From: a virus
DNA: 34,293 bases
Reading direction: 5' to 3' (one strand)
Virus record (IMG/VR): IMGVR_UViG_3300035688_000306
Span: 1 to 34,293 of that record
Below the pieces are notes generated by a model, which saw only the letters and a list, made by a program, of their open reading frames with translations, made no database searches and was not told the origin of the DNA. Below are positions 1,188 to 34,293 of the stretch, one piece after another; position 1 is the first letter of the stretch; the number at the start of each line of letters is the position of its first letter. The position numbers and the translations under genes are program-made.

Positions 1188-1877
1188 ATGAAAGACAAAC
1201 AAGTTCATGCCGTACTAAATTTATACAATGACCGCGCATTCTTAGGCGCTTGCTTGGAAAGTTTAAAAGGCAACGTGGACTCCATCATAGTTGCTGACGG
1301 CGCATATGAACTGTACCTAAAACAGTACAGGCAATATCATCCTGATGCTCAACCATGGACAACCGATGGCAGTTTAGAAATCATTAAAGCTTTCAAGGAT
1401 TTGCCGCCAGTTAAAATAATAGAGTGTCCAGATGGTAAGCCGTGGCTAAACCAATGCGTGAAACGCACAGCCCTCATTGACGCGGTTCCAACAGGCGATT
1501 GGCTAGTGATAATTGACGCTGACAACATGCTCGTAGGCAATGTGGGCGAAGGCTTATATGAAATTCAAACCAGCGGCTGCGTAGTTGGCGGAACACCCTA
1601 CTACAATCCAGGATTACACACATCTTCACTGCGGACTTATTGGCATCCTTGGATTTACCAGAAAAGCGACGGAATGCACTATGACATGACACACTGGTTT
1701 CTACAGGACAAACATGGCAGAATAATTGAGCACACTTACCCCGTTTACTGGACTCAAAAATTTGTTTATGTTCACTTCAAAGCATTCAAGCTTCGAGAAA
1801 GGCTTCAGCCCCACGAGGACTACATGGACATTCTTGGTCCAAGAGGTTGGTTAGAGCCTGTAAAGGCGAAAAAATAA
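1188..1877 (+). CDS. GT-A (family 2-like) glycosyltransferase
   Basis: Predicted nucleotide-sugar glycosyltransferase of 229 residues. The N-terminus (VLNLYNDRAFLGACLESL) and following strand (SIIVADGAY) fit the nucleotide-binding half of the GT-A fold. A DxD-type metal site, IIDADNM, lies at residues 108-114 (Asp110, Asp112). The C-terminus, with HFKAFKLRERLQPHEDY, resembles the lid of small GT2 enzymes. The start has AAGGAAG 8 bases upstream. It is the first of five enzymes ending at 6037 that look like a glycan-building set, probably acting in the host cytoplasm on virion proteins or a host surface glycan. Acceptor and sugar are unknown. Confidence 0.8.
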   Translation: MKDKQVHAVLNLYNDRAFLGACLESLKGNVDSIIVADGAYELYLKQYRQYHPDAQPWTTDGSLEIIKAFKDLPPVKIIECPDGKPWLNQCVKRTALIDAVPTGDWLVIIDADNMLVGNVGEGLYEIQTSGCVVGGTPYYNPGLHTSSLRTYWHPWIYQKSDGMHYDMTHWFLQDKHGRIIEHTYPVYWTQKFVYVHFKAFKLRERLQPHEDYMDILGPRGWLEPVKAKK

Positions 1878-2575
1878 TGCAAGAAACAGTTAAGAAGTCA
1901 GACCGTGAAGCATGGTCTACGCTTAACTTAGGCAGAATGTTGTTCACTACAATGCCCGACTATGATCGTGCAGTCGCCGATGTGCTATGCCAACTGATTC
2001 AGCATAATAAGGAAACGATTGTCGAGTTAGGCTGTGGCGATGGCATCTGGCTAGAGTTTCTCGCAAGACTGTTTCCTGAAAAGAAATTCGTAGGCATCGA
2101 ATGGAACAAGCAGATACTATCGTATGCACGAGAAAAACGGCTTAAAGGCTTCAAAAACGTAGAGTTACACCAGAAGGACGCGACCAAATTCTTTGTGGAT
2201 TGCGACATGTTTTACGGTTTCGGCTTTATAGAGCATTTCAGTAATCCTGTTGAAGTTTTGAGAAAATGGACTGAGCATTTGTCGCCTAACGGCTTCGCAG
2301 TTTTAACCGTGCCGAACCTTCTCAACTCAATTTATGCTAGCAGAAGATTTAGTTTGCCCCTTCAGGAGATTCTCTACAAGAATGAAGTATCCACCGACGT
2401 TTACGGGTTGACAAAACTGTGGAGCCATAACACTTTCATCAAGAAAATCATGGATGCAGGCTTAGAAATACTGCATTTCAGGGTTATTGACGAGTTGGAA
2501 AATGAGAAGCCGTTGTTGGCTGTAGCGTTTAAACGACCCGTAAAAGAGGTGAAAAAATGGATAAAGACGAATTAA
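1877..2575 (+). CDS. Class I SAM-dependent methyltransferase
   Basis: A 232-residue methyltransferase starting at the ATG that overlaps the preceding stop (TAATG). Motif I is ELGCGDG at residues 50-56, the ribose-binding acidic residue is Glu75 in GIEWN, and a motif-II/IV region reads DMFYGFGFIEHF, followed by LSPNGFAVLTVPN as in Methyltransf_11/23-type sugar or small-molecule enzymes. Position between two glycosyltransferase genes suggests methylation of a glycan or of a sugar intermediate. A start 30 bases earlier is possible but lacks the tight stop-start coupling seen throughout this genome. Confidence 0.8.
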   Translation: MQETVKKSDREAWSTLNLGRMLFTTMPDYDRAVADVLCQLIQHNKETIVELGCGDGIWLEFLARLFPEKKFVGIEWNKQILSYAREKRLKGFKNVELHQKDATKFFVDCDMFYGFGFIEHFSNPVEVLRKWTEHLSPNGFAVLTVPNLLNSIYASRRFSLPLQEILYKNEVSTDVYGLTKLWSHNTFIKKIMDAGLEILHFRVIDELENEKPLLAVAFKRPVKEVKKWIKTN

Positions 2576-2856
2576 CGAAATGGATGAAAAATCATGGGAT
2601 AGACCAGCAACTTCGCGTGTGGGTGGCAAACGACATTGTTGGACTGAATGACTACACTATTCTTGAAGACTTAGTTACTACTGGAGTGTCAACTATTTCT
2701 ATAACGTTGAACCCTCAGAGCGGTCAACTTAGCTTCGCCAAAAATGAACCAGTGAAAATCGTTACGCCAGAGCCTATCCTTCCACATGTAGAAGTGGAAC
2801 CCGTTGAAACTCCATCCATTAAACCTAGGAGAAAATCAAAATTTGAAGATACTTAA
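2557..2856 (+). CDS. Hypothetical protein in glycan cassette
   Basis: A 99-residue protein with no recognised family. The first 45 residues look like a compact helical/strand domain (DELTKWMKNHG, LNDYTILEDLV). The last 30 are proline-rich and end basic (KPRRKSK), suggesting a disordered tail. A strong ribosome site (GAGGTG) precedes the ATG, and the gene overlaps the methyltransferase by 19 bases and the next gene's start by 14. It may be an adaptor for the enzymes around it; that is only a guess from position. Confidence 0.6.
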   Translation: MDKDELTKWMKNHGIDQQLRVWVANDIVGLNDYTILEDLVTTGVSTISITLNPQSGQLSFAKNEPVKIVTPEPILPHVEVEPVETPSIKPRRKSKFEDT

Positions 2857-3826
2857 CTTAAGTTTCAGCGACTTCGGCGGCGTAGCCTTCACGTTAAGCC
2901 ATGCCATGAACAAATATCATCCTGAACATTCAACCATAAACCTGCGCAGTCACAGCAGCTTTAACTATCCAACCATCGCGGAAATGCGAGATTACGATTT
3001 GAAATTATGCCGCAAAATCATCATGAAAGCCGACGTGATCCTATTCCATAGCGCAATAAGACCTTTCTTCCAAGGACTACACTTCAAACCTAAAGACATA
3101 CGCGACAAGAAGAAAATAATCTATTTCTTAGGTTCCGAACTCAGGCAAGTAGGTCCGCAACTGTTTGACCAAGCCAGAAAGTACCTTGGCAATTTTCAAG
3201 CTTTAATTGACATTCCAGACTTGTTCTTCTACACGAAAGAGAAAGTGAAGTGGCTTCCAAGTTGCAGGAGCTTCAGCGAAATCAGTAACATGTATGGCAG
3301 ATGCAACCAAGACACTAAAGCCCTAGAACAGTTTGAAGTGCCAAGGAAAAAAGTGATTTTCTGCCATGCGCCTTCCGACGAGTACAAGAAAGGAACAGAA
3401 TCATTCAGTAAAGTAATCACTGATGTTATGAAACTGAATCCAAACGTGAATTACATGCCCATCCGCAACCAAACATGGGCCAGTTGCCTGCAATCGTTAA
3501 GCATGGCAGACGTAGTATTTGACAGTGATCCGCCATTCGAGTATTCCTATGGCATGATAAGTGTCGAAGCCTCAATTTTCAAGATTCCAGTTGTCACAAA
3601 AATAAGCAACCGAGTAATCAAAAAAATCCATGAGGAAACAGGTTTGAACAGTCCCTTCATAACCTTTAGGGATGAGGATGACCTGTTTGAAAAGGCTTAC
3701 AGGCTGGGCAAGGATGAGGAAACGCGTAGAATGTTTGGAGAGATGACATACCGATACTGCAAACGATTGCATGATGAGAAGCCAGTAGCAGATAAGCTCC
3801 TCAGAATAATTGGTGAAATGGATTGA
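2843..3826 (+). CDS. GT-B glycosyltransferase (GT4-like)
   Basis: Predicted glycosyltransferase of the two-Rossmann GT-B type. The N-terminus (LKILNLSFSDFGGVAFTLS) matches the opening strand and glycine loop of GT4 enzymes. The C-terminal half has a strand KKVIFCHAPS followed by KGTESF, and a donor-site stretch (FEYSYGMISVEASIFKIPVV) where the conserved glutamate of the family is expected. I chose the TTG at 2843 because GGAG lies 11 bases upstream and the protein then begins exactly at the first strand. An ATG at 2804 is possible but would overlap the previous gene by 53 bases. Together with the GT-A enzyme it could extend a short glycan. Confidence 0.75.
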   Translation: MKILNLSFSDFGGVAFTLSHAMNKYHPEHSTINLRSHSSFNYPTIAEMRDYDLKLCRKIIMKADVILFHSAIRPFFQGLHFKPKDIRDKKKIIYFLGSELRQVGPQLFDQARKYLGNFQALIDIPDLFFYTKEKVKWLPSCRSFSEISNMYGRCNQDTKALEQFEVPRKKVIFCHAPSDEYKKGTESFSKVITDVMKLNPNVNYMPIRNQTWASCLQSLSMADVVFDSDPPFEYSYGMISVEASIFKIPVVTKISNRVIKKIHEETGLNSPFITFRDEDDLFEKAYRLGKDEETRRMFGEMTYRYCKRLHDEKPVADKLLRIIGEMD

Positions 3827-5067
3827 AACTCACGCTTATAAGACCATTTTATCATAGCATTTGGGAAAGCTTAGCGTGCGGATATATTGGCAGTTATTTA
3901 AAGGAATACTATCATGAAAAACCTTTGGAGCTACAGTTTTTTGATGGTTTCTTCGACAGTGATGAGGTAATTATTAAAGGTTCCGTAGATTCCGACTTCG
4001 TAGGATTTTCATGTACTTCCCCACAAATGAAGCATGCTTTGCGATTGGCTTGGAAAATCAAAGAGCGAAATCCGAAGGTGCAAACCGTTTTTGGTGGGCA
4101 TCATCCTTCAAGCCTTCAACGTGAAACTTTAGCCTATCCGCAAGTGGATATGGTTGTTGTTGGAGAGGGCGAAGTAGGACTACCAATGATACTTAGGCAT
4201 CCGAAAGACAAAACCGTTTATTTACCGCCGCCTATAGAAAACTTAGATATTATTCCTTTCCCAGATCGTAAACTGATTCATCAAGAGAGAACTTTAGCAT
4301 TAACTGAAAAGAACGATGGAGAACGTATAGCCTCTATGTTAAGTGGCAGAGTTTGCCCTTTCCATTGTGTTTTCTGCACTGGCGACCATGATGTTTTTGG
4401 AAATGTAGTTAGGAAACGTAGTGTGGAGAATGTTTTAGCTGAAATGCAACAGTTAATTAGTCAATGGAACATAGATTTTGTCAAGTTTGCAGATGCAGAA
4501 ATCAACACCACCTTGGAGTGGCTTAGAGAATTCTGCCGTGAAAAGATTGAGCGGGGCATAACAGTGCCTTGGGGTGGCAATATTCATGCGGCAATAATGG
4601 ATAAGCCTACGTTGGAACTTATGAAGAAGGCGAATTGCCGAGAAATCTGGATTGGTTGCGAATCTGGTTCGCCACACATCTTAAAGGAAATGGGAAAAGC
4701 CATAACAATCAAACAGATCAAACATGTGTTTACGTGGGCAAAGGAAGTTGGGATACGAAGACGTGCTTATTTCATGGTTGGTTTTCCCTCTGAAACACGA
4801 AGTGACTTTGACTTAACTCTGAAGTTGGCAGATGAGATTGACGCTGACACGTATGGCATGACAGTTCTCTGCCCTTATCCTGGAACTGCAGTCTATTCGG
4901 GGAAGTATGTGGATGTTGATTGGAGTTTAACTGACGAGTATAGTAATGATTTCTGGATAACAGACTCTTTTTCAAATGAAGAGTTGAAACAGTTACAAAG
5001 CGAATTTACCAAAAAGTTTCAAGATAGACTGTGTATTAGACAATCAAAAACCGTTCTAGCTTCATGA
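3823..5067 (+). CDS. B12-binding-type radical SAM enzyme
   Basis: A 414-residue enzyme with two parts. Residues 1-130 form a Rossmann-like B12-binding-type domain (VFGGHHPSS about 89-97; VVVGEGE 111-117). The radical SAM barrel follows, with the cluster motif CPFHCVFC (Cys178, Cys182, Cys185, the CX3CX2C spacing). WIGCESGSP and MVGFPSET are typical later barrel strands. Such enzymes perform methylations, epimerisations or rearrangements on unactivated carbons. The start is a TTG overlapping the previous stop (TTGA), with GGTG upstream. Beside glycosyltransferases and an aminotransferase it probably modifies a sugar. Whether cobalamin is actually bound cannot be told, since no DxHxxG motif is evident. 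Confidence 0.85.
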   Translation: MKLTLIRPFYHSIWESLACGYIGSYLKEYYHEKPLELQFFDGFFDSDEVIIKGSVDSDFVGFSCTSPQMKHALRLAWKIKERNPKVQTVFGGHHPSSLQRETLAYPQVDMVVVGEGEVGLPMILRHPKDKTVYLPPPIENLDIIPFPDRKLIHQERTLALTEKNDGERIASMLSGRVCPFHCVFCTGDHDVFGNVVRKRSVENVLAEMQQLISQWNIDFVKFADAEINTTLEWLREFCREKIERGITVPWGGNIHAAIMDKPTLELMKKANCREIWIGCESGSPHILKEMGKAITIKQIKHVFTWAKEVGIRRRAYFMVGFPSETRSDFDLTLKLADEIDADTYGMTVLCPYPGTAVYSGKYVDVDWSLTDEYSNDFWITDSFSNEELKQLQSEFTKKFQDRLCIRQSKTVLAS

Positions 5068-5086
5068 AGATAATTGAGGAAATGAA

Positions 5087-6037
5087 TTGACCATTCTAGA
5101 GACTGAGCAGAAGCAGATTCCTTTTTATGTTCTGCCTAAACTGTCTGAATCGCAGATTGAACATATTACGAATGAAGTTGCCAAAGTCATGCGAACAGGT
5201 CAGATTACAAACGGATTGAATGTTAGGCAACTGGAAGAGAGAACTAAGCAGTTACACGGTGTAGACTATGCTGTTGCGTGTTCATCAGCAACTCAAGCCA
5301 TGTGGATTGCGTTGAAAACCCTTAAAATAAAAGCTATAATGGTTCAAGCCTTCACTTGGAAAAGCCTTCAATACATACTGCCTTCTGAGACTTTCTATTG
5401 TGACATAAATAAAAACACTTGGCTTATGAATCAACAAAGCAATGATTTAAATGCCTTAATAGTCACGCATACTTTCGGCAACACAGATTTAGCAGAACAA
5501 AATAGTGAGAATCAGACAATAATTTATGATGGCGCTTACTCGTTAGGCGCGGATTTGCCAGAAATTGGCGATGCAACTGTCCTAAGCTTGACAGCGACCA
5601 AAACTGTAACTTCATGTGAAGGCGGATTAATCCTCACAAACAACCGTAAACTAGCAAACGAAGCTGAAGAAATAAGAGATAAATGCAGTCGCATGTCAGA
5701 ACTGAACGCAATCGTAGGCTTAACATATTGTGGTATGCTTGATGAAATTCTAGCTAAGAAAAAGCGCATTTTCGATTATTACAATGCTCATTTGCCGTTC
5801 CGAAGCCAGAAAACATCAAGATATGGCACAAACTATGGGTTCTACGGTTGCCTAGTTCCTAATCGGGATGTGTTACTTGACAACTTGAAACGTAAGGTGG
5901 ATGTGCGAATCCGATATGAACCATTGCAAAAAGGGTTTCCAGCAACTGATGAGATTGCGTCTAAGATTGTTATTCTTCCATGCTATCCAGATTTAGACCC
6001 GTCAACCGTTGTGAATTATGTTAATGAGGTGACTTAA
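5087..6037 (+). CDS. DegT/DnrJ/EryC1 sugar aminotransferase
   Basis: A 316-residue fold-type I PLP enzyme, somewhat shorter than the usual 360-390 residues. Motifs in order: ITNGLNVRQLE (substrate entry region), CSSATQAMWIAL (cofactor phosphate loop), IIYDGAYSLGA with Asp148 for the pyridine nitrogen, and the Schiff-base region TATKTVTSCEGG with Lys172. Key residues appear intact, so it may be active in converting a keto-sugar nucleotide to an amino-sugar. Start is TTG 5087 with GAGG 7 bases upstream. It closes the sugar cassette. The shortened C-terminal part may narrow or change the substrate pocket. Confidence 0.85.
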   Translation: MTILETEQKQIPFYVLPKLSESQIEHITNEVAKVMRTGQITNGLNVRQLEERTKQLHGVDYAVACSSATQAMWIALKTLKIKAIMVQAFTWKSLQYILPSETFYCDINKNTWLMNQQSNDLNALIVTHTFGNTDLAEQNSENQTIIYDGAYSLGADLPEIGDATVLSLTATKTVTSCEGGLILTNNRKLANEAEEIRDKCSRMSELNAIVGLTYCGMLDEILAKKKRIFDYYNAHLPFRSQKTSRYGTNYGFYGCLVPNRDVLLDNLKRKVDVRIRYEPLQKGFPATDEIASKIVILPCYPDLDPSTVVNYVNEVT

Positions 6038-7538: not shown

Positions 7539-8075
7539 ATGGATGATATTCCTTTACGTTTGATACCTTTGCGTCTCATTGATTTAGCTAACCAAAAAAT
7601 CGGCAAACTAACAGTTTTGGAAAGAACAGGGAATCAAGGAACAAGAGTTGTCTGGAAATGTCGTTGCGAATGTGGCAATATTGTAAATGTAACGGCACAT
7701 GAACTTCGTAATGGGCAAATATCATGTGGTTGTGCCCATACTGGTCGTCCTTCCAAACATGGTCTATCTAACAGCCATGAATACCATATTTGGGCAGATA
7801 TGCGGAGGCGATGCAAATCTCCAACAGCTTTTGCGTACGCTCGTTATGGAGGACGTGGTATCGTTGTCTGTGAACGATGGGATAAATCCTTTCTATCATT
7901 TATTCAGGATATGGGAAAACGACCGAGTCCACGACATACTCTTGATCGAATAAATAACGATGGGAACTATGAACCTTCAAACTGCCAATGGGCAACACGA
8001 AAAACGCAAGCGAATAATCGGCATAAGAGAGCATTGCCAAACCGAAGCATGATTAATGGCAGATTCATCAAATAA
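7539..8075 (+). CDS. HNH homing endonuclease
   Basis: A 178-residue free-standing HNH nuclease of the type common in phage genomes. N-terminal DLANQKIGKLTVLERTG begins a DNA-binding zinc-like domain with CRCECG and a second Cys pair (SCGC). The nuclease part has the residues expected in this family: HTLDRINNDGNYEPSNCQWAT, with ATRKTQANN after it. It has no convincing ribosome site and may be translated by coupling to the ten-codon relic leader. A T-rich stretch follows the stop. It probably cuts copies of the locus that lack it and spreads by repair. Confidence 0.88.
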   Translation: MDDIPLRLIPLRLIDLANQKIGKLTVLERTGNQGTRVVWKCRCECGNIVNVTAHELRNGQISCGCAHTGRPSKHGLSNSHEYHIWADMRRRCKSPTAFAYARYGGRGIVVCERWDKSFLSFIQDMGKRPSPRHTLDRINNDGNYEPSNCQWATRKTQANNRHKRALPNRSMINGRFIK

Positions 8076-11732: not shown

Positions 11733-12329
11733 CTAGGTTTTATGTTCTCTTTCGGTCAACGTTACATGGCACTTTTTGCATAGAGTAAGCACTAATAGTG
11801 GCTGACCGTAATCAGTATGGTGATGTTCTAATCTATCTACGGAACCACATAATTCGCATTTATCTTTGAGTGGCACATAATAGTTTGCAATATTGCGCGA
11901 TTTAATCAAATTGGCATGTCTTCTTCGATAGTTCCTCATCCAACTGTTAACTTTTTCTTTATGATTTGCTCGGTATTTTTTGCTATTCTCTGTCTGTTCT
12001 TCTTTATGATTGTCGTAATATTGACGCGCTTCAATTCTTTTCTTCGCGACAAATTCAGGGTGATTCACTCGGTATTTCCGTTTTTGTTTCCGATTTAACT
12101 CATTATATTTATCACGGTTAAGCGTACGATAAAGTCTGTGGTATGCGACCTTTTCCTTCAAATGTTCCTTCGTGTATTTCTTATCTCGCGCTTTACACTC
12201 TTCAAGATGGCGTTTTCTATAAGTTTGATGATTGACTTTTTCCTTTAGTCTAAATGTTGGGTCAGTAAGTCGTCTTTCGCGTTTTCGTTCTCTATCCCGT
12301 TTACGTCGCTCTTCCTTGCTCATAGGCAC
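11733..12329 (-). CDS. HNH endonuclease with basic repeat arm
   Basis: A 198-residue protein on the strand opposite to all neighbouring structural genes. The N-terminal 140 residues are extremely basic and repetitive (KRDRERKRERR, YRKRHLEECKARDKKYTKEH), like the modular DNA-binding arms of phage HNH proteins. The C-terminus carries the metal-bound nuclease: CELCG, EHHHTDYGQP and CKKCH. Start GTG 12329 has GGAGG 9 bases upstream; an ATG at 12323 is an alternative. It is presumably a mobile intruder between two neck genes and does not break either. Confidence 0.85.
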   Translation of the reverse strand: MPMSKEERRKRDRERKRERRLTDPTFRLKEKVNHQTYRKRHLEECKARDKKYTKEHLKEKVAYHRLYRTLNRDKYNELNRKQKRKYRVNHPEFVAKKRIEARQYYDNHKEEQTENSKKYRANHKEKVNSWMRNYRRRHANLIKSRNIANYYVPLKDKCELCGSVDRLEHHHTDYGQPLLVLTLCKKCHVTLTEREHKT

Positions 12330-14331: not shown

Positions 14332-15996
14332 ATGATTCCACAAAATAGAATTAAAACCTACACGGGCGCGGTTAACGACTACATATTAGACAATAAGGCC
14401 CTGAGCATCCACGTTAAAGCTGTTCTCAATGATATAGGCACATTCAATTTTGTTTTGCCCACAGTAGAAGACACGGGCTATCTTTACACGGACATAGCCA
14501 TAAATGATAAAGCATACTTCTATTTGTGGGATGCTGAAGTTGGAAGTTTACCTGCGAACCATCAGTTTATTGGGAAAATCTGCAGAATCTCCGCGCCTTT
14601 AACTTGTGGATCAGGATATTATCGCGTGTTTGAAGGCAAACTTTTAGGGGAAATTTTAGGGCGACAGTTGAAACGGAATAAGTCTTGGATCGCCACAGAC
14701 GCGGATGTTATAGTTGCGGAATTGGCTGCTGATTTAGGTTTAGGCACATCCTTTTCTGGTGACGCTTCAGACGATTACCATGTGACGTTGCATGTTGACG
14801 TTGAACCCTTCATGGATGTTTTACAGAAGGTTTCAGATTATTGGGTTTCAGCGGGGGTTGAAATTAGGAAAGATTGGAAAATTGACATTTCTAATAACCT
14901 CGTTTGGAAGACAAGACCACTTAGAAGCGTGGGAGTTGAAACCTTAACTGTAGGCACGAATATCCTAAACTATAATGTTTTGCGAGACGTTGAACAAGTA
15001 AGAAATTACATAACAGTTTTTGGCACTAACGGAACAAACGCGCAAGAAGGCAGATGTGAACCGTCAAATCATGATGCGTGGACTTATGGGGCTGGATGGG
15101 ATGCTGATTATGGCACAGAAGGCGCGAGTGTTGTAACAAAGATTTTAGGCGCAAACAGTTTACTATTAAGCTCTGAAGATGTCGCTGGGCATGAAACAAT
15201 CCAGTGCCATTATGACTTTTCCACAGCCCTGCAGGGCATGGGCCGAAGCGGTTATCAACTTCTCAAGTTTTACATATGCCGTGACATTACAGGGGCTGCG
15301 CCTATAACGGCTCAAGTTAGACTATGCACAAACGCAACTAATTATTTCTATCGTAACATAGTAACTGAAGCGTCAAACTTGAATTTTAATGCTGTAAACA
15401 GTGACTTAGGAGACAGCCAAGAATATGACGCGGTGTTAAATCCTAATGGAGTTTGGCATAAAGCACTTTCGCCTGATTGGTTCAACATTAACTTTATAGA
15501 ATTCTATTTTGAACGCACAGACACAAACGACATGTTCTTCTATATTGACGCACTTTACTTCTCTAAAGGCCGATATAGGGCAAACGCTTCAAGCGGAGCA
15601 CCCGCGAGCGAACAGTCTGACCTCGACGTTGTTGATGATAACTTAAAATCTGATGCTGAATGTCAAAGTAGAGCAGAAACTCTGCTTTATCAATTAAAAG
15701 ACGCGCCAATTCGGATTGACATAGAGACAATGGGTAATATGAACCTTCTAATTGGTGATCAACTCAGCGTGACAATCCCGGCTGAATCCATAACCGCGCA
15801 GCCTTATGATGTCCTCTCTGTAGAACATGATTTGACTAAAGAAGGGTTTAAAACGAAAGCAAGTATGGTTAATTCAAGCGTCACTCCGACTCTTATTAAC
15901 ATTCGGCAGTTGCCATCTGGCACGCCATACGAAGTTATAGCTAAAAAATTTGGTGTTCAACGTGAAATAGGTAGGGGTTTACAAATAATCAAATAG
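14332..15996 (+). CDS. Tail hub/baseplate protein with inserted jelly-roll domain
   Basis: A 554-residue protein from ATG 14332 with AGGTGA just upstream. Residues 1-215 have the beta-rich texture of gp27-like tail hub proteins (FEGKLLGEILGRQL, HVDVEPFMDVLQKVSDYW). About 225-435 look like an inserted beta-sandwich of carbohydrate-binding type (LLKFYICRDITG, FIEFYFERTDTNDMFFYIDA). The hub fold resumes with SRAETLLYQLKDAPIRIDI and IGDQLSVTIP. The C-terminus ends with SGTPYEVIAKKFGVQ. It probably closes the distal tail end and may bind host sugars through the insert. Confidence 0.7.
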   Translation: MIPQNRIKTYTGAVNDYILDNKALSIHVKAVLNDIGTFNFVLPTVEDTGYLYTDIAINDKAYFYLWDAEVGSLPANHQFIGKICRISAPLTCGSGYYRVFEGKLLGEILGRQLKRNKSWIATDADVIVAELAADLGLGTSFSGDASDDYHVTLHVDVEPFMDVLQKVSDYWVSAGVEIRKDWKIDISNNLVWKTRPLRSVGVETLTVGTNILNYNVLRDVEQVRNYITVFGTNGTNAQEGRCEPSNHDAWTYGAGWDADYGTEGASVVTKILGANSLLLSSEDVAGHETIQCHYDFSTALQGMGRSGYQLLKFYICRDITGAAPITAQVRLCTNATNYFYRNIVTEASNLNFNAVNSDLGDSQEYDAVLNPNGVWHKALSPDWFNINFIEFYFERTDTNDMFFYIDALYFSKGRYRANASSGAPASEQSDLDVVDDNLKSDAECQSRAETLLYQLKDAPIRIDIETMGNMNLLIGDQLSVTIPAESITAQPYDVLSVEHDLTKEGFKTKASMVNSSVTPTLINIRQLPSGTPYEVIAKKFGVQREIGRGLQIIK

Positions 15997-17410: not shown

Positions 17411-17487
17411 TTGTCGCACCTCCTCATTTTTGCGTGGCAAACGATGTCATGGTGCCAGATGCCTTCACAATGTTTCTTCTTCACCAT
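17407..17487 (-). CDS. 26-residue Cys/His microprotein
   Basis: A 26-codon frame with a good GGAGG site, overlapping neighbours at both ends. Three Cys and three His residues (CEGIWHHDIVCHAK then RRC) could form a single zinc knuckle. Alternatively it is a translational relay that keeps ribosomes on the operon. Confidence 0.45.
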   Translation of the reverse strand: MVKKKHCEGIWHHDIVCHAKMRRCDK

Positions 17488-18701
17488 TTCAAAACCTCCA
17501 AAATCTGCTCAAACAATTTATCTTCATCTTTATCCGTTTCATAGGGCAATGATACAACATGTACGCCTTGTTTCGTCAGTTGCTCCCTTATCATATCATC
17601 CTTGTCTTCTCTGCCCTGATGGACTGGACCGTCAATGTAAATGGCCAAGTTTTGCTTTCTGAAATAGAAGTCAGGAGTGGTTTTCTGCAAACAAAATTCA
17701 ATATCCGTTTCTGGCGTGAAACCTTTGCCACTTAATCGTAATAGTAGTTTTTCTTCCATTTTGCTATGTTGTGGTTGCATCACGGCTTTGCGTTGTTGCC
17801 AAGTTTCTTGGGGTTTGAATGTGGGTTCCAGTTCTAGTTTACGCACTGGTAAAGGCTTGTCTTTTCCAGCACATTCTGGACAAATTAAAAGGTTGTCAAC
17901 AAAATGCATTTTGGTTCGTTCTGTTTGTTTTCCACATTTTTCGCATGGTCGCATTCCAAGCAAGTATGTTTTGTAGATTTGTCCTGAATTTGCTTTTGGA
18001 ATTATGGTTTCTTGAGTCTTAAGAGGGGTTTCCACGCGTGGAAACTCATTCTTTTCTTCCCATCCTTTCTTTTGTGCTTCACTTAATACCTTGTCTTTTT
18101 TCTCTGGAGGCATATAATTATAGATTGTACTTTTACCGATTCCCGTGATTTCCGCAATCTGCTCCACAGTTAAACCCGAGCCAATCAACAATCCAATGTC
18201 GTTTTTCATCTCTTCACTTGAATAATGCCTACGGCAAAAGTTCACGGTCATTCGAGCTAAGGCCCGATCCACGGGCGTTTTAATCTGGTCATTCTTAACT
18301 GTCCAAGCCTTTGGATTCACTTTCAATCTGTGAAAACCGTCAATAATTATGCCCTCTGCATCTTGTAAGCATGGCACAAGTTGTCCAAGTTTTCCTTTCA
18401 AGCTTTTGCTGAGAGCATACTCGCCTTGTTCTTCAATAGGTGCCAAAGGTTCTTTAGGTTCTTCCTTTTCTTTTTGTTGTTTGGGTAAGGTGAAGATGGC
18501 AAACTTTGTCGTTTCATCCTTCCTATAACCTCCTCCCTTGTCGCTTATTGCCCGCAAGATTTTGCTGAAAGTAGGTCCATCCAAATAGCGATAAGCCTTA
18601 ATCACCCATTCCCCGTTCTGTTCTGTGATGATGAATCTGTCCGGAATTTCTTTTTCTGTGTAGCCTACTGCGTCTTGCAAAAGTTTCAAAGCTTCATTCA
18701 T
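17481..18701 (-). CDS. ParB-like/HTH/zinc-ribbon/Vsr-like nuclease fusion
   Basis: A 406-residue multidomain protein, largest in the leftward arm. Residues 1-75 form an unassigned domain. About 95-150 resemble the ParB N-terminal domain (GIIIDGFHRL, 117-126). A helix-turn-helix follows (LTVEQIAEITGIGKSTIYNY, about 177-196). A zinc ribbon uses Cys253, Cys256, Cys274 and Cys277. The C-terminus is PD-(D/E)XK-like of the Vsr/DUF559 type: Glu317, TPDFYF with Asp344, and LAIYIDGPVHQ with Asp357 and His361. It could bind a specific site and nick or cut it, for example in genome partition, replication start or packaging. The ParB/HTH/nuclease parts are visible by motif; the combined function is inference. 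Confidence 0.75.
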   Translation of the reverse strand: MNEALKLLQDAVGYTEKEIPDRFIITEQNGEWVIKAYRYLDGPTFSKILRAISDKGGGYRKDETTKFAIFTLPKQQKEKEEPKEPLAPIEEQGEYALSKSLKGKLGQLVPCLQDAEGIIIDGFHRLKVNPKAWTVKNDQIKTPVDRALARMTVNFCRRHYSSEEMKNDIGLLIGSGLTVEQIAEITGIGKSTIYNYMPPEKKDKVLSEAQKKGWEEKNEFPRVETPLKTQETIIPKANSGQIYKTYLLGMRPCEKCGKQTERTKMHFVDNLLICPECAGKDKPLPVRKLELEPTFKPQETWQQRKAVMQPQHSKMEEKLLLRLSGKGFTPETDIEFCLQKTTPDFYFRKQNLAIYIDGPVHQGREDKDDMIREQLTKQGVHVVSLPYETDKDEDKLFEQILEVLKW

Positions 18702-19776: not shown

Positions 19777-20002
19777 TTTTTTTCAACTCCTCCTTTTTGT
19801 AGATTGGAACTTGTGAACCTTCAGATTGTTTAAATGGTAAATCATTCCATAGGCAAATCATCCATCTATTTGGATAATCTAAAACATAGTTCCGTGTTCC
19901 ACAACCGTTACATCGAAAACCATAATGAGTTTTAAATGTGTCACTGGAATTGCATTTTAGGCATCTGTCTATTCCAAATGGAGATTCAACAAAATTAATC
20001 AC
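19769..20002 (-). CDS. Zinc-ribbon protein
   Basis: A 77-residue protein with CLKC and CNGC separated by 14 residues (RCLKCNSSDTF; GFRCNGCGTRNYV), a zinc ribbon like those in transcription factors. It starts at GTG 20002, overlapping the integrase stop (GTGA), with AGGAGATGA upstream. Confidence 0.65.
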   Translation of the reverse strand: MINFVESPFGIDRCLKCNSSDTFKTHYGFRCNGCGTRNYVLDYPNRWMICLWNDLPFKQSEGSQVPIYKKEELKKIE

Positions 20003-20925
20003 TTTTCTATCATCTCCTTTTTTTCTGGTTTAAATCGGCATTCTGAAGCGCATGAGGGTAAAGGCGAGTTTTTCTGTGTCCAACTTCTACAGAGAGCAAG
20101 ATTAGAACAGCCATTACAGATTGTTTCTCCCGCAACCCAACCCACTTGCTTTGAATTCCTCGTATTAAATTGAGAGACATCATTGAGTTGGAGTTGAGTC
20201 GTTTCGGGAACTAATGGACTGTTTTGGACGCCGTCGAACTCTCTTTGCACATCCTCAAAAAAGCTCAGTTTAGAAAGGTAAACTTGCGTAACCGCTAGAC
20301 TCTTATGCCTTAAAATTCGTTGAAGAGTAACCAAACTTTTCTTTTCATCATAAACCCAATGTGCAGCAAAATAATGCCGTAAAATCCGTGGATTAAAACC
20401 TTTAACTCCTACCTTTTCTGCTATGTCATGGATGATTTGCCATATTTCGACGCGACTCAGAGGTTCATCGGCTTTAACCTTGGTCCAACTGCCTCGGTGC
20501 GTGAACACGAGGCCCTCACATCTTTCTCCAACCAAGTCTTTAACCAATTGTAGGCTTAACATGTCTAGGGGCAGGGGGAAAAACGTGTATTTTTTGCTGT
20601 CTAACACTTGGAAACTTCTGTTTTCAAAATCAATGTGTTCTATGCGTAAACTGCGAATTTCGCTGTTTCTTAACCCTATTTTCATGGGAATGTGAAGTAT
20701 CAAAAAGTCTCGGGGGTTTGCGTGTTGTTGTGCGTAGGCGTGTACATGTTCCACATCACTCCGTTTAATAACTATTGCTTCACCCGCCCAATCCCGCCTA
20801 TGTGTCCCTCCGTTGGTCATGAGAAGCTTAACCGTTAAGCGCATTTTGGATTTAACAACTTTGTTCATACTCCAATTCTGAATAGGGGACTGAGAGAGAG
20901 ATTGGTGTAAGTGGTTCTCCATCAT
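19999..20925 (-). CDS. Tyrosine recombinase/integrase
   Basis: A 308-residue site-specific recombinase. Catalytic residues visible: Arg86 (MKIGLRNSEIRSL), Lys111/112 (DSKKYTFFPL), the box PRILRHYFAAHW with Arg183, His207 (RILRHKSLAVTQ) and nucleophile Tyr216 (TQVYLS). The usual first His of the HxxR box is Arg180. The part before the catalytic domain is only about 50 residues, so a full core-binding domain is missing or divergent. A Cys-rich tail (CNGCSNLALC, CASEC) probably binds zinc. It makes the virus temperate or integrative. No att site can be assigned. Confidence 0.85.
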   Translation of the reverse strand: MMENHLHQSLSQSPIQNWSMNKVVKSKMRLTVKLLMTNGGTHRRDWAGEAIVIKRSDVEHVHAYAQQHANPRDFLILHIPMKIGLRNSEIRSLRIEHIDFENRSFQVLDSKKYTFFPLPLDMLSLQLVKDLVGERCEGLVFTHRGSWTKVKADEPLSRVEIWQIIHDIAEKVGVKGFNPRILRHYFAAHWVYDEKKSLVTLQRILRHKSLAVTQVYLSKLSFFEDVQREFDGVQNSPLVPETTQLQLNDVSQFNTRNSKQVGWVAGETICNGCSNLALCRSWTQKNSPLPSCASECRFKPEKKEMIEK

Positions 20926-26201: not shown

Positions 26202-26315
26202 ATGCCAGAAGAAATTTGGACTTGCCTAAAATGCGGCGCAGTCAACCTAAGGTTAACATGGAAATGTAGAATATGCAGAAACCAAAACGAGATGATTGTT
26301 AATGCAAGAAGTTAG
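26202..26315 (+). CDS. 37-residue zinc-ribbon microprotein
   Basis: MPEEIWTCLKCGAV then a second pair CRIC, so two CxxC pairs 14 residues apart. It overlaps the methyltransferase start by 14 bases. No clear ribosome site is seen. Same kind of miniprotein as in the leftward arm, here in the rightward arm. Confidence 0.55.
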   Translation: MPEEIWTCLKCGAVNLRLTWKCRICRNQNEMIVNARS

Positions 26316-27114
26316 ACATCAAGAAATTATGGATACGATTCAGAAAGTAAAGTTGATTCTTCAAAATTTACATCTTAATACTTTTCAGAAATATCGTGAA
26401 GCTGGACAAGAAATTATAGGGTCAGGTTACAAAAAACGTAAATGGAACTCGGAGCAACGTAAAGAAGCATTAAAAGAATGGGCGATTTCTCGACAAACGT
26501 TCGACAATATAGTAAATCTAGGCACATTAACAGAAATAGAATTCGCTAACGTCGTTAGCCAATTTCCATCAGTTCATGCTTGGGCAAATCAGAGAACAAT
26601 AACTCCAATCAAACCCATGCCCCTTGGTGAGTTTGACATAATTTACGCTGACCCACCTTGGAAATATACATTTGATTTCTTAACATCAAGTCCAAATAAC
26701 CATTATTCTATTTTGAAGACACAAGAAATTTGTGAACTACAAATTCCTACCTCTGAGAATGCTGTTTTATTCTTATGGGCTACAAATCCTCTCTTAGAAG
26801 ATGCATTACAAGTTATGAAGGCATGGGGTTTTCAGTACAAGACTAACATAGTTTGGGTAAAAGACAAATTCGGAATAGGCTTCTACGTTAGAGGACAACA
26901 TGAATTACTCCTTATTGGAACAAAAGGCAATGTTCACCCTCCTGAAGAATCAAACCGTTTTTCCTCAGTGGTTAATGCTGACGTAAAAGAACATAGTGAG
27001 AAGCCAGAGGAAATATACAATCTTATCGAGGCAATGTACCCAGATAAAACATATCTCGAATTATTTGCGAGAAAACAACGACTTAAATGGAAATCTGGGG
27101 GTAATGAAGTTTAA
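26302..27114 (+). CDS. MT-A70-type adenine-N6 methyltransferase
   Basis: A 270-residue SAM-dependent methyltransferase. The catalytic DPPW (YADPPWKY, about residues 115-122) defines the MT-A70 group. ENAVLFLWATNPLL and WGFQYKTNIVWVKDKFGIGFY are the usual following strands. The end (EKPEEIYNLIEAMYPDKTYLELFAR) is the closing SAM-binding part of the fold. The N-terminal 100 residues (GYKKRKWNSEQRKEALKEWA) are helical and may recognise DNA. Viral members usually methylate adenines in viral DNA, guarding against restriction or marking it for packaging. ATG 26302 is preferred over TTG 26296. Confidence 0.85.
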   Translation: MQEVRHQEIMDTIQKVKLILQNLHLNTFQKYREAGQEIIGSGYKKRKWNSEQRKEALKEWAISRQTFDNIVNLGTLTEIEFANVVSQFPSVHAWANQRTITPIKPMPLGEFDIIYADPPWKYTFDFLTSSPNNHYSILKTQEICELQIPTSENAVLFLWATNPLLEDALQVMKAWGFQYKTNIVWVKDKFGIGFYVRGQHELLLIGTKGNVHPPEESNRFSSVVNADVKEHSEKPEEIYNLIEAMYPDKTYLELFARKQRLKWKSGGNEV

Positions 27115-34019: not shown

Positions 34020-34146
34020 GTTTAAGGTGAAAACAAAAAATGTCAGAAAAAAAGATTGTTGCAGAAGCAAAAACAGGCGACGGTACAGTGATAGAGATTA
34101 ATCTGCCCGAAATAGACAAGACCATTCAGAAACTTGTTGAGGAAAG
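34020..34146. repeat. Right copy of exact 127-bp terminal repeat
   Basis: Identical to bases 1-127. Here the upstream context is visible: protease/scaffold gene, structured spacer, then the MCP ribosome site. This is the natural genomic position of the MCP gene. Confidence 0.85.
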
Positions 34147-34293
34147 TCCGAAGCTTAAAGAATACTTTGAAGAATTGAAGGAGTACAAAGCTAAGAAGGC
34201 AGAGGGCAAAGGCGTGGTTGAAGCCATGTCCACAGATAGGAAAACAAAGTTGGTTGAGGCCCTTAGAAACGTTAGACAAGCTGACATTAAAGA
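34040..34293 (+). CDS. MCP 5' end, variant allele (partial)
   Basis: The first 84 codons of an MCP gene, cut by the window end. The protein matches the complete copy except for five substitutions after residue 60 (for example EAMSTDRK in place of ESMGTDKK), while DNA in that stretch is clearly diverged and most changes are silent. Either this is the same gene from another strain joined at the ends of a circular map, or the start of a second, tandem MCP gene. Confidence 0.75.
   Translation, partial: MSEKKIVAEAKTGDGTVIEINLPEIDKTIQKLVEESPKLKEYFEELKEYKAKKAEGKGVVEAMSTDRKTKLVEALRNVRQADIK

Follow-up and report, generated by a model that had tools for sequence, protein, structure and literature searches.

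Parallels for a DNA site lying inside a gene are known in parS, which sits within spo0J of B. subtilis, and in ori, which sits within lambda O. A nuclease joined to a domain of a replication protein is found in Odn of phage ICP1, which combines a T5orf172 nuclease with a RepA_N domain and targets the origin of a satellite. Fusions of the ParB-CTPase fold have been surveyed, and HNH and methyltransferase fusions are mentioned in that survey (PMC12704722), in the main text of which we found neither a DUF559/Vsr fusion nor in-gene palindromes. Among Vsr-like proteins, FASTKD4 is reported to lack cutting activity (PMC11879112), and rapid module exchange is also typical of homing-derived nucleases (PMC10448857). 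Here, we describe a viral gene that combines a ParB-like DNA-binding unit with a Vsr-like nuclease domain and carries a palindrome between the two.

Architecture and genomic context of the ParB-nuclease gene

The DNA analyzed, a virus record, comprises 34,293 bases and carries genes for capsid, terminase, and integrase; the whole stretch is referred to as the window. Its ends (1-274 and 34020-34293) align with each other gap-free, with 88.7% identity across 274 bp, and thus the genome is probably near complete; the same match places the start of the capsid gene in the record twice, which may reflect either duplication of the gene or a circle whose overlapping ends come from different strain variants. 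Database matches suggest that the host is probably a Bathyarchaeia archaeon, because relatives of the nuclease domain and of the ParB-HTH unit occur in Bathyarchaeia genomes or a MAG. Among the 52 window ORFs, no polymerase, primase, helicase, or Rep protein and no member of the ParA family was recognized with Pfam (E ≤ 1e-4) or PHROGs (E ≤ 1e-6), and the statement in an earlier sequence-only reading that no other replication protein is recognizable holds for this ORF set.

The gene is an intact minus-strand ORF (17481-18701) with an ATG start, encoding 406 aa, and it lies in a minus-strand block of small genes, several of them with Cys pairs, with a tyrosine recombinase (19999-20925) in its neighborhood; in related viruses, it is located downstream of the integrase. 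Elsewhere, the late region of the window encodes two free-standing endonucleases of the HNH type (7539-8075 and 11733-12329), and genes for glycosyltransferase, methyltransferase, B12/radical-SAM, and DegT aminotransferase proteins cluster beside the capsid gene (1188-6037), perhaps with a role in virion glycosylation. An MT-A70 adenine methyltransferase is encoded at 26296-27114, and a role in self-protection was considered for it and dropped, as none of nine related viral records has the gene. The features of the ParB-nuclease gene are as follows.

17481..18701, minus strand: ORF comprising an N-domain, ParB fold, HTH, zinc ribbon, and EDxHD nuclease; 11 homologous genes
18477..18701, minus strand: N-terminal alpha/beta domain, residues 1-75; missing in L057, L059, and L060
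18222..18425, minus strand: ParB-CTPase-like fold, residues 93-160; PHROG, family-profile, and structure matches
18327..18341, minus strand: box II DGFHR (GxxR), residues 121-125; D121, H124, and R125 near-invariant
18228..18242, minus strand: box III-like NFCRR, residues 154-158; N154, R157, and R158 near-invariant
18102..18221, minus strand: helix-turn-helix, residues 161-200; PF02796, E = 1.9e-6, above the cut-off, and helices in the model
17958..18101, minus strand: flexible linker, residues 201-248; low pLDDT at 208-247
18028..18045, no strand: 18-bp perfect palindrome GTTTCCACGCGTGGAAAC, proposed binding site of the protein's own ParB-HTH; within the linker-coding stretch
17862..17954, minus strand: zinc ribbon CxxC...CxxC, residues 250-280; C253, C256, C274, and C277
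17484..17801, minus strand: EDxHD/Vsr-like nuclease domain, residues 301-406; DUF559, E = 3.1e-5, above the cut-off
17754..17756, minus strand: predicted active-site E316; E or D in 16 of 16 sequences
17670..17672, minus strand: predicted active-site D344; invariant, 16 of 16
17619..17621, minus strand: predicted active-site H361; invariant, 16 of 16
17598..17600, minus strand: predicted active-site D368; invariant, 16 of 16

These data indicated that the ORF is real and that the ParB, HTH, ribbon, and nuclease features named in the sequence-only reading are all present in one chain, with the HTH borne out by the PF02796 match and the four ribbon cysteines kept in at least 90% of 12 alignment rows; the N-terminal domain and the in-gene palindrome had been missed. 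For the ParB-type domain, a PHROG of ParB-like partition proteins matched residues 94-215 (E = 2.5e-6), a family profile matched PDB ParB-N chains (E = 0.005), a Foldseek search with the predicted model returned Spo0J as its top matches, and structure comparison of the model with VIA gave Z scores of 8.0 for ParB and 7.9 for KorB, so that the segment of residues 95-150 does resemble ParB, as that reading had proposed. The model has a mean pLDDT of 67 and a pTM of 0.29, so it does not give the relative placement of the domains. Pfam ParB_N (PF02195) did not match the window protein, and the survey of ParB-CTPase fusions relied on this profile, which does not match the present family (PMC12704722). 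The hallmarks of a ParB-CTPase, namely, box I, a GxxR box II, box III, and an HTH directly after the ParB fold, were all found, and the G and R columns of box II are invariant across 11 diverse sequences. Retention of the GxxR and N..RR motifs makes CTP binding by this fold plausible.

Relatives of the N-terminal domain form the end of chromosomal Bathyarchaeia proteins of about 120 to 150 aa (L012, L043, L044, and L047), in which a GG-Y-S-GK-SHF-PK motif is seen, and in one other archaeal protein this domain precedes a canonical ParB_N (E = 5e-19). A ferredoxin-like fold was considered for it; as the Z scores were only middling (up to 6.0), no fold is claimed.

At the C terminus, the Vsr-like nuclease end was supported by the DUF559 match, which also exceeded the cut-off for a stand-alone relative of the domain, and by VIA Z scores of 10.6 for I-Bth0305I, 10.3 for Vsr, and 10.2 for the DUF559-like structure NGO0050. 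The active-site comparison covered 16 viral and chromosomal sequences, with nuclease-domain identities as low as 24-30%; position 316 is D in place of E in L003 and L053. Judging by the sequence pattern and by what is generally known of Vsr, we take E/D316, D344, H361, and D368 to be the EDxHD motif, and the C-terminal acidic residues thus sit on the columns of a nuclease site in all 16 sequences, in line with the sequence-only reading. Stand-alone EDxHD (DUF559) proteins of about 120 aa, with all active-site residues kept, occur in dozens of Bathyarchaeia genomes (including L023-L041).

A Vsr-like domain need not cut, and the protein could be a DNA-binding autoregulator or a partition-type protein in which this domain contributes only contacts to DNA (or RNA), and FASTKD4 is an example of activity being lost in this fold (PMC11879112); position x of EDxHD is a Tyr in the window protein, and the palindrome described below is about equally common in genes lacking the nuclease. 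However, retention of the four residues in 16 sequences at 24-30% identity would be unlikely for a dead enzyme, and the stand-alone chromosomal copies retain the same residues. We therefore regard a noncutting domain as improbable.

Independent exchange of the ParB-HTH and nuclease modules

The sequence-only reading knew of no standard family with this domain order. A homolog search revealed a recurring architecture: the ParB-HTH-ribbon-nuclease order is present in 11 genes, comprising that of the window, 9 on viral contigs, and 1 in a Bathyarchaeota MAG (JALHSQ010000166.1), and hence the combination is not due to chance. One viral member is split over the ends of its contig, which repeat exactly for 123 bp, and one relative in a Bathyarchaeia genome has the N-domain, ParB-HTH, and ribbon followed by a different C terminus, next to a SNF2-type helicase (named from sequence). 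Second ParB-like genes were also observed in the same viral or MAG contigs (L003:5308-6234 and L005:3946-4548), the latter with an in-gene palindrome of its own, TGCGACACTAGTGTCGCA.

Comparison of family members revealed that the ParB-HTH and nuclease modules have been swapped independently. For L003 and L005, identity is 97% in the ParB domain versus 31% in the nuclease domain, L003 and L053 show 98% identity in the nuclease domain versus 40% in the ParB domain, and the window protein and L002 show 95% identity in the ParB domain versus 35% in the nuclease domain. Tree tests rejected the grouping of L003 with L053 in ParB-HTH (p = 3e-5) and, in the nuclease domain, the groupings of L003 with L005 (p = 6.6e-65) and of the window with L002 (p = 4e-4). 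The exchange borders are sharp in the DNA. Between L003 and L053, the swapped ParB-HTH segment extends slightly beyond the palindrome, to gene positions 808 and 733, respectively (palindromes at 791-804 and 710-727), and thus the reader and its candidate site travel together. A global alignment had first hinted at a mobile gene in unrelated flanks, and this idea was dropped: L003 and L053 are mosaic viruses related to each other, and the gene occupies the same region in both, which argues for exchange within the gene and does not show mobility of the gene itself.

The border just past the palindrome could also be read as the trace of an intragenic gene-conversion drive, in which the palindrome is a cut site and the homologous gene of a coinfecting virus is cleaved at the module border, causing the swaps. 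Against this reading, which we consider very unlikely, the nuclease-module border lies elsewhere (L003 and L005 diverge after gene position ~1055), and nuclease-less ParB-HTH genes, as well as genes probably from bacterial viruses, carry the palindrome too.

Palindromes downstream of the HTH codons

The 18-bp palindrome of the window was reached by searching for palindromes common to the window and L002. It spans codons 219-225, about 60 nt past the end of the HTH, and is the longest uninterrupted palindrome in the window, with no further copy within 4 mismatches elsewhere in the window; in L002, it is degenerate, with the outer arms alone kept. Its half-site GTTTCCACG resembles the Pseudomonas half-parS heptamers GTTCCAC and GTTTCAC (PMC7022226), a likeness that may be coincidence. 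Other kinds of sites were considered and rejected. For the bacterial parS consensus, the window has one 3-mismatch match (at 15954, versus 0.32 expected), and for iterons or multicopy operators, no 12-mer of the window reaches four occurrences, and the window and L002 share no repeated 11-mer. A second contig with the 18-mer (L145) proved to be an unrelated virus in which the match falls outside any ParB-like gene.

Different palindromes occupy the equivalent position in other members, namely, CTGCGAGCTCGCAG in L003, CTCCGAGCTCGGAG in L005, GAACTGACAGCTGTCAGTTC in G004, and AAGTCGCACGTGCGACTT in L053; the palindrome is weak (6+6 or less) in L057, L058, and L059, imperfect in L050, and absent in L060. 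Between L003 and L005, A-to-P and Q-to-E changes alter both half-sites with symmetry kept, and paired changes of this kind also distinguish L116 from L118. The spacer is zero or one base in most members, so an RNA hairpin is unlikely and was set aside. Such spacing is that of sites bound by HTH dimers.

In-gene palindromes are also found in ParB-HTH genes that lack the nuclease, where L013, L014, L016, L021, L061, L078, and L082 have perfect arms of 7 to 13 bp, as well as in further viral relatives (L091 and L095) and in some more distant ParB-like genes, probably of bacterial viruses (L104, L116, L118, L125, L130, and L133). Since the palindrome occurs with and without the nuclease, it has no direct word on cleavage.

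Several observations concern the surrounding DNA. In L116-L133 and L104, long palindromes are built around GGAAATTCC, e.g., GGTGCGGAAATTCCGCACC and GAGCATTGGGGAAATTCCCCAATGCTC, about 245-250 nt after the DGHHR codons, a position equal to that in the archaeal family, with L104 and L133 slightly earlier. L019 and L020, which encode ParB-HTH with a cupin-like domain, have no in-gene palindrome and instead carry one of 18+18 (16+16) bp about 50 nt upstream of the gene. An extra 22-bp perfect palindrome, AGTAGGGGTGGCCACCCCTACT, is located at gene position 234 of L053, in the linker that joins the N-domain to the ParB fold. Finally, a TVKTQ[DE]T peptide recurs in the linker of the window protein (17958-18101) and its relatives, although the rest of the linker varies; its coding DNA, AAGACTCAAGA, lies just downstream of the palindrome and is near-identical in distant members.

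Compared with same-length stretches of the same contigs, the linker palindromes gave a combined p of 1.8e-8. For 14 nuclease-less ParB-HTH homologs that had not been used to form the idea, a synonymous-codon reshuffling null gave p = 4.1e-8; the reshuffling p values rest on 200 to 1000 shuffles and are thus approximate. Across 36 clusters, which were grouped by ungapped identity and include the discovery set, the bin 225-375 nt after the DGxHR codons was enriched (approximate p = 3.6e-6, kinship ignored), with arms of at least 8 in 10 of the 36, and the five other bins along the genes of these clusters gave no palindrome signal (p = 0.64-0.999). About two thirds of the wider ParB-like clusters are without a long palindrome. 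These results indicated that the palindrome is a recurrent feature of the position just after the HTH codons.

Candidate function and comparison with known systems

Taken together, the protein may be a modular nuclease with site-specific DNA binding, belonging to Bathyarchaeia-associated head-tailed viruses. Its ParB-fold and HTH unit would bind as a dimer to the palindrome just downstream of the HTH codons (18028-18045), probably under nucleotide regulation as in ParB, and the ribbon and linker would place the EDxHD domain on nearby DNA. The presumed target is the virus's own genome, to be nicked or cut to start or resolve replication, or to be held in a centromere-like maintenance complex. 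This reading, in which the modular ParB-HTH nuclease binds the in-gene palindrome and acts on the genome of its own virus for replication or maintenance, is the one we favor, with confidence slightly short of even. Nuclease action at or near the in-gene site, in origin nicking or maintenance, would be the likeliest role. The window contains no recognized replication protein, which makes an origin or maintenance role attractive without proving it; we know of no Vsr-type nuclease that serves as a replication initiator.

The sequence-only reading had offered three roles, namely, a nickase for replication start, a maintenance factor, and an anti-competitor nuclease. The palindrome, kept in several nuclease-bearing members and exchanged together with ParB-HTH, favors the first two, in which the protein acts on the genome of its own virus, over a nuclease aimed purely at competitors. 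The third would take the form of a domesticated homing-type nuclease resembling Odn, in which a ParB-HTH derived from the partition protein of competitors steers the nuclease to their ParB-bound site and destroys them. Phage homing endonucleases with EDxHD domains are indeed known (PMC3943268), comparable module swapping has been described for phage homing nucleases and Odn (PMC10448857), the window also carries free-standing HNH nucleases, the nuclease-less ParB-HTH genes L013, L061, and L003:5308-6234 could be targets, and some nuclease-bearing members have a degenerate or missing palindrome. However, several members keep a perfect palindrome in the nuclease's own gene, and L003/L005 restore its symmetry, which counts against a simple version of this scheme because silent loss of the site would protect from self-cutting. 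Moreover, among the viral contigs and 257 genomes of the MAG's class, we found no gene that lacks the nuclease and either matches this ParB-HTH closely or has an identical palindrome, and PADLOC models match weakly, in the HTH or the surrounding region alone, for which reason membership in a defense system was also rejected. Thus, we judge an Odn-like role unlikely.

In our reading of these sequences, each ParB-HTH would travel with its own parS-like candidate site, and because the site is inside the gene, specificity and target would move together when viruses swap modules. More broadly, ParB-like HTH proteins of archaeal and bacterial viruses might constitute a large class with their own site in the gene directly after the HTH codons, reader and site forming one cassette, to which the archaeal family would add an EDxHD nuclease directed at the virus's own genome; we consider this wider proposal an even call. 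A search of open-access papers turned up no account of in-gene sites across a whole family. If the proposal is right, a simple sequence rule, to look just after the HTH codons, would predict binding sites of orphan viral ParB-like proteins, whose targets are mostly unknown. It would also suggest a way for DNA-binding specificity to change while its site is retained, and provide a candidate for how a virus without recognizable replication genes starts or maintains its genome.

Compared with ParB, Noc, and KorB, the protein shares the fold, the order of ParB followed by HTH, the GxxR and N..RR motifs, and a palindrome as the likely site; it differs in having a ribbon and a nuclease in place of the C-terminal dimerization domain and in its silence to PF02195. 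Unlike ParB of ParABS systems, it is accompanied by no recognized ParA in the window, and its candidate site lies inside the gene, after the HTH. The association of a ParB fold with enzymatic domains on mobile elements is shared with the surveyed ParB-CTPase fusions, which include bacterial HNH fusions (PMC12704722). The predicted nuclease fold (Z ~10) and the invariant E/D-D-x-H-D residues are those of the EDxHD nucleases Vsr, I-Bth0305I, and DUF559, from which it differs in that guidance would come from ParB-HTH rather than from NUMOD-type parts or mismatch recognition. Like ICP1 Odn, it joins a nuclease to the DNA-binding domain of a replication or partition protein and shows domain swapping, whereas its candidate site is in its own gene. 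In this respect, it would resemble lambda O, in which a site is embedded in the coding sequence between the DNA-binding and effector domains, except that lambda O has iterons and no nuclease domain.
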